64,000 nt of DNA from the NCBI RefSeq assembly GCF_017873815.1, contig NZ_JAGGKQ010000011.1, positions 1 to 64,000 on the forward strand, read 5' to 3'. The DNA is from Halorubrum alkaliphilum. Lineage in GTDB: Archaea > Halobacteriota > Halobacteria > Halobacteriales > Haloferacaceae. Position numbers and translations under genes: made by a program. This document shows, piece by piece, positions 10,283 to 50,725 of this stretch; the stretch's first letter is position 1, and each line of letters opens with the position of its first letter. The notes beneath the pieces were generated by a model. The model did no database searches, was not told where the DNA came from, and worked only from the letters and a program-made list of their open reading frames with translations.

Positions 10283-10403
10283 AACCGCACCGCACCTCAC
10301 GCCTCCCCAGCCTCGTCGGGCGGCCTCGCTTCGCTTCGGCCGCCCGACTCCCTCGCGGTCCGCTCGCGCCCTGATAAGGGCGCTCGCGGGCGCGCCCGTT
10401 ATC
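10283..10403 (+). repeat. Structured intergenic repeat, copy A
   Basis: A conserved box ending CTCCCCAGCCTCG (10303-10315) is followed by a hairpin: TCGGGCGGCC (10316-10325) and GGCCGCCCGA (10338-10347) with a 12-base loop. Next comes the box CTCCCTCGCG (10348-10357). A second hairpin GCGCCCT/AGGGCGC (10366-10383) competes with a longer pairing of CTGATAA and TTATCAG. Related copies are at 40.45 kb and 50.65 kb; the boxes are conserved, while the stem sequence differs and both arms change together. The rest of 10216-10789 holds no convincing gene. Confidence 0.75.
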
Positions 10404-10416
10404 AGATCCGGATGAG

Positions 10417-10522
10417 GTCGACGTGGCGGAAGCCGGGACCGCATCGTCGACGTGGCGGAAGCCGGGACCGCATCGTCGACGTGGCGGAAGCCGGACCGCA
10501 TCGTCGACGTGGCGGAATCGGA
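10417..10522. repeat. Tandem repeat, about 29 bp, 3.6 copies
   Basis: Units starting GTCGACGTGGCGGAAGCC begin at 10417, 10446, 10475 and 10503. The third unit has lost one base and the last is partial and diverged. The array directly follows structured repeat copy A and precedes the rps15 promoter region. It is noncoding as far as can be seen. Confidence 0.8.
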
Positions 10523-10789
10523 AGTGCGTCGACCCACAAGAACACCCTTAAGAGGAGTGACGGCGAGTGGTTTCATGGGAACAGCACAGCTGCGGATCCG
10601 ACGCGCCGGGGTCTTTTCGCCCACGGCTTGGGAACGTAGCAGTGCACCGCCGCCTCCGACGACGGGGCCGAGGCGTCCGCTCGCGCGGTCGTCTCCCGAA
10701 GTCGCTCGCGTTCGCGAGCGGTTTCGGTCACGCCCCCTCGCGCGGAGTCGCGGTCACGTCTCGCGGTTGTGCCGTTCCAATTTACAACA

Positions 10790-40004: not shown

Positions 40005-40226
40005 CACAACACCCTCCCGGCAGCCGTTTTTATAACCGATCCGCGGCGATCCACACCGGGTGAGGCGCTCGGATCCGTTCCCGGTTAGTACCGAGGCGAG
40101 CGTGAGCGACGGCGGGAGTAAGTCTCGCAATACGGTTTGGTAGTTGTTTATAAGTGGGTTAGTGGTGTTGCTGGCGGCGATTTATATATGGGTGGTGCTG
40201 TGGTGACCGCTTCCATATCTCCAGCT

Positions 40227-40594
40227 GTCCATTTATAAACGGTTAGCGACGAATCGTCGGTGAAGACTTCCAAAGCCCCAGCCTGCTCCGGTCGAGGGGC
40301 TCGCTGCGCGCTCAAACGGGCTCGCTATGCTCGCCCGTTTCAGTGCTTGCGTCGTCATCAGAACGCTCCGCGTTCTGATCGGCTCACGAGAGCGCCGCTC
40401 TCGTGAACGCCCGTCTTCCCGGAGCAGGCTGCCCCTTTGAGTCCCACCCCGCACCGCACAGCACCCGCACCTCACGCCTCCCCAACCTCGCCGGAACGGT
40501 GCTCGCAAGCGCCGTTCCGGGCTCCCTCGCGCCGTCGGTTCGCGCCCTTTCAAGGGCGCGAACCGGGGCGCGCCACAGCATCGTCCATTTATAA
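40227..40594 (+). repeat. Structured intergenic repeat, copy B: branched hairpin element flanked by 12-bp direct repeats
   Basis: GTCCATTTATAA occurs at both ends (40227-40238 and 40583-40594). Inside, an 11-bp outer stem GCCTGCTCCGG (40281-40291) with CCGGAGCAGGC (40419-40429) encloses three perfect hairpins: 40314-40340 (8 bp), 40357-40379 (9 bp) and 40384-40406 (10 bp). Then follow the box ending CTCCCCAACCTCG, a hairpin CCGGAACGG/CCGTTCCGG (40491-40520), the box CTCCCTCGCG and a 12-bp hairpin GGTTCGCGCCCT/AGGGCGCGAACC (40537-40564). The whole stretch 40005-40767 has no convincing gene; before 40227 it shows only TATA-like motifs. Confidence 0.75.
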
Positions 40595-40717
40595 GCGATC
40601 GTCGCTGTCGCTTACAGTCTGTTTAAATACGATCCTGCCACCACCGATGTGAGACACTCACTCCCGACATCGATCGTGGTTTGCTCTTCGCTCGCTTTGT
40701 TCGCGCTGCGTCTCACA

Positions 40718-50589: not shown

Positions 50590-50725
50590 AGGCTTGCTGT
50601 CGGCGCGCGCGAGAAGCGTGCGCGAGGGAGACCGGCGGCGGCCGCACTGCGGTGCGGTTTCGCGGCCGCCGCCGGTCGAGGCTGGGGAGGTGCGAGGTGC
50701 GGTACCGTGCGAGGTGGGGTTTTGT
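50590..50725 (-). repeat. Structured intergenic repeat, copy C
   Basis: On the minus strand a box ending CTCCCCAGCCTCG (plus strand 50677-50689) precedes a 15-bp perfect hairpin: ACCGGCGGCGGCCGC pairs with GCGGCCGCCGCCGGT (50631-50645 and 50662-50676), with a 16-base loop. The box CTCCCTCGCG (50621-50630) follows, then a GC-rich stretch. The arrangement matches copies A and B, but the stem is unrelated and longer. The surrounding gap 50465-50799 holds TATA-like motifs and no convincing gene. Confidence 0.75.

Follow-up and report, generated by a model that had tools for sequence, protein, structure and literature searches.

A Halorubrum repeat that keeps its place, orientation and boxes while its hairpins are replaced

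The window, i.e., the whole 64-kb stretch of Halorubrum alkaliphilum DNA analysed here, holds three intergenic repeats that agree in their boxes and differ in their stems. What keeps such stems paired when their sequences are not kept? A first-pass annotation had seen in them a dispersed structured repeat with conserved boxes, and had taken the complementary change in both arms as a sign of selection on structure (RNA or cruciform DNA) or of a mobile module with exchangeable stems. The three copies lie where that annotation placed them, with the boxes exactly as described and the stems perfectly paired (Table 1); the end given for copy 1, 10403, falls a few bases past the last paired base of its hairpin 2 at 10396. 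They are the only exact matches of box 1, CTCCCCARCCTCG, in the window. Because the box alone, searched at two mismatches, is found seven times in the 64 kb with 5.6 matches expected, which is not above chance, the window on its own is thin evidence, and it is the whole genome that settles whether the repeat is real.

Distribution and architecture of the family

The genome-wide search proposed at the outset retrieved 66 exact copies of CTCCCCARCCTCG from the window's 3.1 Mb genome, compared with a single match of the reversed control; one of these copies, L036, lies in a coding region and matches by chance. The family is genus-wide. In a first sample, all 34 other genomes of the genus carry 12 to 178 exact copies, and a complete Halorubrum genome added later carries 193. 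In genomes of other families the count is 0 to 4, near the reversed control. When the distribution was re-tested with a longer pattern in 119 genomes of the taxonomic family, 12–167 copies were found in 12 of 12 Halorubrum genomes, 62 in one genome of another genus, and 3–4 in two others; the other genera yielded no copy. Named matches in the public genome collection are nearly all from Halorubrum, with Halobellus captivus in addition. The element family is centred on Halorubrum. Two genomes, G019 and G017, are copy-poor, with 12 and 16 copies versus 33–178 elsewhere in the first sample.

The elements look chromosomal: all 54 plus-strand copies of G018 lie on a single contig (C1), the phage collection gave no matches, and 4 of 72,556 plasmids match weakly. 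A plasmid or phage origin was set aside on the lack of phage matches and on these four weak plasmid matches. At four loci (L003, L031, L044, and L057) tracts of G and C stand in place of hairpin 1, with some contigs ending nearby; sequencing or assembly thus fails at strong hairpins, and copy numbers from draft genomes are lower bounds.

The core of the element, about 100–125 nt long, is composed of GCACCTCACGC, box 1 CTCCCCARCCTCG, hairpin 1, box 2 CTCCCTCGCG, hairpin 2, and box 3 CGCCACCGCA, in this order. In about half of the copies, the 60 nt that follow box 3 include a TTTATAA-like sequence, the start of which nearly always lies 5–14 nt past the box (127 of 270 copies); it is present in convergent gaps as well, where a promoter is not needed. 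Fuller copies extend upstream of the core by a long hairpin 0, which is closed by CTCCAAAGCCCCAGCC and GGCTGCCCCTTTGAG, has a symmetric GCCCC/GCCCC internal loop, and is preceded by tandem units bearing more TTTATAA motifs. Copy 2 belongs to a longer composite element of this type, reaching from about 40267 to 40595. Upstream of its hairpin 0, at 40147-40283, and likewise at L002 and L004, imperfect tandem units of about 55–75 bp resemble TTTATAAGTGGTTGCTGGCGGATCGACGGTGAACACCTCCAAAGCCCCAGCCG, each with a TATA-like motif. On the complementary strand, copies with hairpin 0 (e.g., 40267-40490) display four conserved G tracts, GGGGAG, GGGGTGGG, AAAGGGGC, and CTGGGGCTTTGG, two of which belong to hairpin 0's symmetric GGGGC/GGGGC loop. 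It is conceivable that these tracts form a G-quadruplex in the potassium-rich haloarchaeal cytoplasm.

At several fixed junctions, two-hairpin modules of about 46–54 bp are nested in the element and leave the other helices intact. Many of them (40356-40409 in copy 2; e.g., L006, L025, and L041) follow the plan (C)AGCG-stem-loop-stem-GGCAG-stem-loop-stem-CGAC; the modules occur in both orientations, draw on a limited set of stems, and might constitute an independent mobile unit. A scan with TGGCAGCCGG for free-standing modules returned matches that mostly lie near element copies, the rest being at about control level.

Copy 1 is directly followed by an S15-Halobacteria ribosomal protein leader (RF03143, 70.5 bits) at 10575-10645 (+). 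Between copy 1 and the S15 promoter, at 10417-10530 (+), lie about four tandem GTCGACGTGGCGGAAGCCGGGACCGCATC units, which were not seen upstream of S15 in relatives.

Table 1. The three repeat copies of the window and their parts
Feature	Positions	Strand	Sequence or remark
Copy 1	10303-10396	+	boxes and paired stems
Copy 1, lead and box 1	10290..10315	+	lead CCGCACCTCACGC, box 1 CTCCCCAGCCTCG
Copy 1, hairpin 1	10316..10347	+	stem TCGGGCGGCC/GGCCGCCCGA
Copy 1, box 2	10348..10357	+	CTCCCTCGCG; 3' end is the basal arm of hairpin 2
Copy 1, hairpin 2	10355..10396	+	GCGGTCCGCTCGCGCCC/GGGCGCTCGCGGGCGCGC, then degenerate box 3
Copy 2	40478-40580	+	boxes and paired stems
Copy 2, 5' box	40267..40283	+	CTTCCAAAGCCCCAGCC; basal arm of hairpin 0
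Copy 2, hairpin 0 region	40284..40426	+	
Copy 2, nested two-hairpin module	40356-40409		within hairpin 0 region; TCAGAACG/CGTTCTGA and CACGAGAGCG/CGCTCTCGTG
Copy 2, closing box	40427..40450	+	GGCTGCCCCTTTGAGTCCCACCCC; closing arm of hairpin 0
Copy 2, lead and box 1	40466..40490	+	lead CGCACCTCACGC, box 1 CTCCCCAACCTCG
Copy 2, hairpin 1	40491..40520	+	CCGGAACGG/CCGTTCCGG; about 12 near relatives at other loci of the same genome
Copy 2, box 2	40522..40531	+	CTCCCTCGCG
Copy 2, hairpin 2	40528..40572	+	CGCGCCGTCGGTTCGCGCCC/GGGCGCGAACCGGGGCGCG
Copy 2, box 3	40569..40580	+	CGCGCCACAGCA
Copy 2, motif after box 3	40588..40595	+	TTTATAAG; at the family's fixed spacing
Copy 3	50595-50689	-	boxes and paired stems
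Copy 3, lead and box 1	50677..50702	-	box 1 CTCCCCAGCCTCG
Copy 3, hairpin 1	50631..50676	-	ACCGGCGGCGGCCGC/GCGGCCGCCGCCGGT
Copy 3, box 2	50621..50630	-	CTCCCTCGCG
Copy 3, hairpin 2	50604..50624	-	short form CGCGC/GCGCG
Copy 3, box 3	50595..50607	-	CGCGCCGACAGCA

Paired stems and hairpin exchange at fixed addresses

A regular-expression hairpin parser resolved 281 of 317 copies, which reveal 198 distinct hairpin-1 sequences. Their outer six positions are paired at 83.5%, as opposed to 56.0% after shuffling of arms between copies (58.8% at most in 500 shuffles). A smaller set of 136 distinct hairpin-1 sequences yields 84.8% versus 55.6% (maximum of 1000 shuffles, 59.1%), with all six outer positions paired in 52% of sequences versus 3% after shuffling. 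The variable stem of hairpin 0 is paired at 72% versus 51%. Wobble pairs account for less than 1% on the box strand, and 2x2 internal loops read TC/TC 81 times out of 85 in hairpin 1 and 149 times out of about 160 in hairpin 2. The initial description of a dispersed structured repeat, whose stems differ in sequence and pair better than chance, is thereby confirmed. Neither of the two outcomes named in advance as refuting it, a lack of additional copies or pairing at chance level, was observed.

Orthologous addresses were compared in two species pairs, the closer of which provides only two shared addresses. For the more distant pair, 600 kb of each of the single-contig genomes G026 and G061 were chained at 87.2% identity. 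Their collinear part contains 28 boxes in G026 and 42 in G061; 23 addresses are common, and 22 of these keep the same orientation. Nevertheless, not one of the 21 parsed pairs of orthologous hairpins 1 is identical, and their mean identity of 0.614 hardly differs from the 0.597 of shuffled partners. The same holds for other parts when orthologs are compared with random copies (hairpin 0, z 0.9; spacer, z 1.4; box, z -1.3; hairpin 1, z 0.7), hairpin 2 being slightly more alike at orthologous addresses (z 3.1). The downstream flank is clearly orthologous, with z 11.0 for the 60 nt after box 3 and z 16.7 for the next 100 nt. Of 2183 cross pairs between the two genomes, 28 do have identical hairpins 1, and never at a shared address; the same hairpin sequences turn up again at other addresses.

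Along this line, both shared addresses of the closer pair, G015 and G020 (95.1% identity over 72 kb), have the same orientation and the same flank, and all of hairpins 0, 1, and 2 are new there. One address has in both genomes the same box-3 variant, an unusual CCCCCGCAACGATT after hairpin 2, which places a breakpoint at the foot of hairpin 2. Place, orientation and boxes are therefore kept, and hairpins 0 and 1, and largely hairpin 2, are replaced. Stems that were repeatedly swapped and are yet always paired imply that the fold is kept and not the sequence.

How small are the units of exchange? With hairpins 1 counted as similar from an identity of at least 0.85, no linkage to hairpin 2 was detected in G026 (hairpin-2 identity 0.787 versus 0.788 for random copies) or G061 (0.728 versus 0.734), and the window's genome shows a weak one (0.591 versus 0.542, a value reached in 20 of 500 permutations). 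The two hairpins being unlinked in two of three genomes, exchange extends down to single hairpins across a box of about 10 nt.

The first-pass annotation had further suggested looking for the window's own copies at orthologous loci, which succeeded for one of them. At the place of copy 2, four other genomes have a core with different hairpins, and others have a short gap without a core. At the orthologous sites of copies 1 and 3, inspected in 29 relatives each, no copy was found; upstream of S15, synteny differs in relatives, and there is no clean empty site. Presence or absence of the element differs between species, and a clean filled/empty pair was not found. Taken together, the idea of exchangeable stems is borne out directly at orthologous loci. 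Of complementary change in both arms, the paired stems hold, but point-by-point compensatory mutation mostly does not, since whole hairpins are swapped in place. The mobile module is likewise an apt description of the hairpins and not of the complete element, which stays in place across species and keeps its orientation at nearly all shared addresses.

Gene context and competing explanations

In 1.4 Mb annotated with a simple codon-usage gene caller, none of 83 boxes lies inside a called gene; all are in gaps. The element occupies 22 of 85 convergent gaps (26%), 42 of 516 tandem gaps (8%), and 16 of 220 divergent gaps (7%; p = 7e-7), so that convergent gaps bear it three times as often as the others. 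In tandem gaps it is oriented sense in 28 cases and antisense in 15, and the presence of both orientations makes a strict one-strand terminator unlikely. This pattern fits a boundary working both ways, or a fold that either strand can use. It also fits insertion or retention biased away from promoters, and the convergent-gap enrichment could be mere promoter avoidance.

With moderate confidence we favor a joint reading, namely a REP/BIME-like chromosomal element that is read by its fold, has its hairpins exchanged in place by ectopic copying, and acts at gene 3' ends. The cell would recognize the fold and the unpaired boxes rather than the stem sequences. If any well-paired stem suffices, swaps would be nearly neutral and the stem sequence would be unconstrained. 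Hairpins would be copied ectopically between dispersed copies, by gene conversion or by template switching at short homology, and copying would presumably enter and leave in the conserved boxes. The mechanism of exchange is a guess, because boxes of 10–13 bp are short for standard homologous recombination, and the exchange itself is read from genome comparison. If whole alleles were replaced through transfer from other strains, part of the same pattern could result. The proposed action at gene 3' ends would be located above all between converging genes, where the element may serve as a two-way boundary for converging transcription or supply hairpins to the 3' ends of transcripts.

We regard it as improbable, though worth stating, that exchange is the task of a dedicated system, in which a nuclease, a recombinase or a process tied to replication would act on the unpaired boxes by cutting or switching, and would carry individual hairpins from one dispersed address to another. 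If this were true, each genome would hold much the same places with stems ever reshuffled, and selection would act on the fold and not on the sequence.

Equally doubtful is a non-autonomous mobile element of the PATE, small mobile repeat or REPIN type. It would depend on a Y1 (IS200/IS605-type) transposase, which recognizes single-stranded hairpins; there would be repeated landings in the same intergenic hot spots, and small two-hairpin elements would land inside larger ones. The nested modules of common build, with the other helices left intact, point in this direction, as do the same kind of nesting and palindromes in Haloquadratum PATEs and SMRs (PMC3119063) and the varying presence between species. 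However, independent landings should agree in orientation at about half of the shared addresses, instead of at 22 of 23. The Y1_Tnp domain (PF01797) was not found in G002, G004, G005, G015, G018, and G027, all six of which carry the element, three of them abundantly (G015, G018, and G027 with 121, 124, and 104 copies, respectively). Nor are the boxes carried by IS200-type loci: 30 Y1 loci contain no box 1, and other boxes appear there as scattered single short matches only. Hence a Y1 transposase as mobilizer and IS200/IS605 ends as the source of the boxes were both rejected. As Y1 transposases were not found in several copy-rich genomes, an engine of the REP/RAYT or IS200 type seems unneeded today. 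Terminal inverted repeats as in MITEs are absent, the 5' box CTCCAAAGCCCC and the 3' box CGCCACCGCA not being complementary.

Also unlikely in our view is a structured RNA, or an RNA 3'-end element, that is transcribed from the complement of the box strand, has tandem G.A pairs in every hairpin, and evolves its stems by compensatory change. Two weak hints speak for the complement of the boxes as the folded strand. First, the TC/TC bubble is strongly one-sided; on the complementary strand it reads GA/GA in the context CGAG/CGAG, a known stable context of tandem sheared G.A pairs. Second, isolated mismatches of the transition type are, on the box strand, A.C in preference to G.T, and thus of the G.U type on the other. 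In hairpin 2 there are 16 versus 2 distinct contexts (p = 0.0013; 9 versus 2, p = 0.065, when one recurrent variant is left out); in hairpin 1, 15 versus 8, which is not significant. The TTTATAA motif at its fixed distance from box 3, convergent gaps included, is in line with an RNA as well. On the other hand, wobble pairs, scarce on the box strand and at about 1–2% on the other, are too few for compensatory point drift, and stems at orthologous addresses resemble each other no more than random ones do; scarce wobble pairs and whole-stem swaps together argue against slow compensatory RNA evolution. No Rfam family matches: covariance models gave no gathering-level match at the elements (best E 0.32, at 40100-40700), and a relaxed threshold returned chance-level matches only. 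The gap in fold energy between the strands is explained by base composition, being equal to that of shuffled sequence, and fold energy was therefore discarded as a strand test.

Least likely of all are functionless palindromes, made and perfected by replication template switching and lying as neutral junk in gaps: quasi-palindrome correction would be expected to leave perfect stems with few wobble pairs, and purifying selection on promoters can produce a 3' gap location, but the boxes are near invariant genus-wide, the TC/TC bubble is retained and not corrected, addresses and orientations are long-lived, and copies are kept in all sampled Halorubrum genomes.

Relation to known repeats and significance

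Among known repeats, REP/BIME (PMC3733652) and, in Haloquadratum, PATEs and small mobile repeats (PMC3119063) come nearest, the resemblance being that all are extragenic and palindromic. REP/BIME repeats and the element have in common short extragenic palindromes, unpaired tags, tens to hundreds of copies and a location in intergenic gaps (for the element, 66 copies in the window's genome, and 0 of 83 boxes in called genes), and no transposase is known for CGTC-type REPs (PMC3733652). In contrast, the feet of the element are CTCCCCARCCTCG, CTCCCTCGCG, and CGCCACCGCA instead of GTAG or CGTC, and its stems are not conserved within the family, with 198 distinct hairpins 1 among the 281 parsed copies. 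Two or three hairpins, several boxes and in-place exchange between species set it further apart. In the main text of the REP surveys searched, including PMC3733652, haloarchaea were not found.

The PATEs and SMR-A of Haloquadratum walsbyi are transposase-free, palindromic, heterogeneous and mutually nested, and 'SwitchRepeats' at identical positions have been given for this species (PMC3119063). The Halorubrum element is likewise haloarchaeal, transposase-free, palindromic, heterogeneous and nested. However, PATEs have near-terminal palindromes related to IS605 ends, whereas the Halorubrum boxes were not found at IS200-type loci, and unlike PATEs the element keeps its address and orientation and is centred on Halorubrum. 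REPINs are similar in their paired hairpins, their tens to hundreds of copies and their vertical maintenance in a lineage, but they need a resident RAYT, and several copy-rich Halorubrum genomes yielded no Y1 transposase. In all, the element departs from these kinds in the features that define them, i.e., tags, conserved stems, a resident transposase and IS605-like ends.

Integron attC sites have variable stems that are recognized via structure and extrahelical bases; the likeness to attC is one of working principle alone. The mode of evolution of the element is unusual. A search of the open-access literature returned no description of the Halorubrum family.

Palindromic repeats of prokaryotes are usually compared via their sequence. 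At an orthologous site of this family, sequence is nearly useless, and fold, boxes, place and orientation are what persists. The element thus constitutes a natural experiment on what such repeats need. Its exchange is fast enough to renew the stems within about 5% genome divergence and acts on units of about 30 bp; if it is ectopic conversion, this would set a tight limit on the homology required in haloarchaea, and if it is a dedicated mechanism, that mechanism would be new. Stable addresses and abundant copies make both the convergent-end function and the exchange rate testable in culturable Halorubrum.
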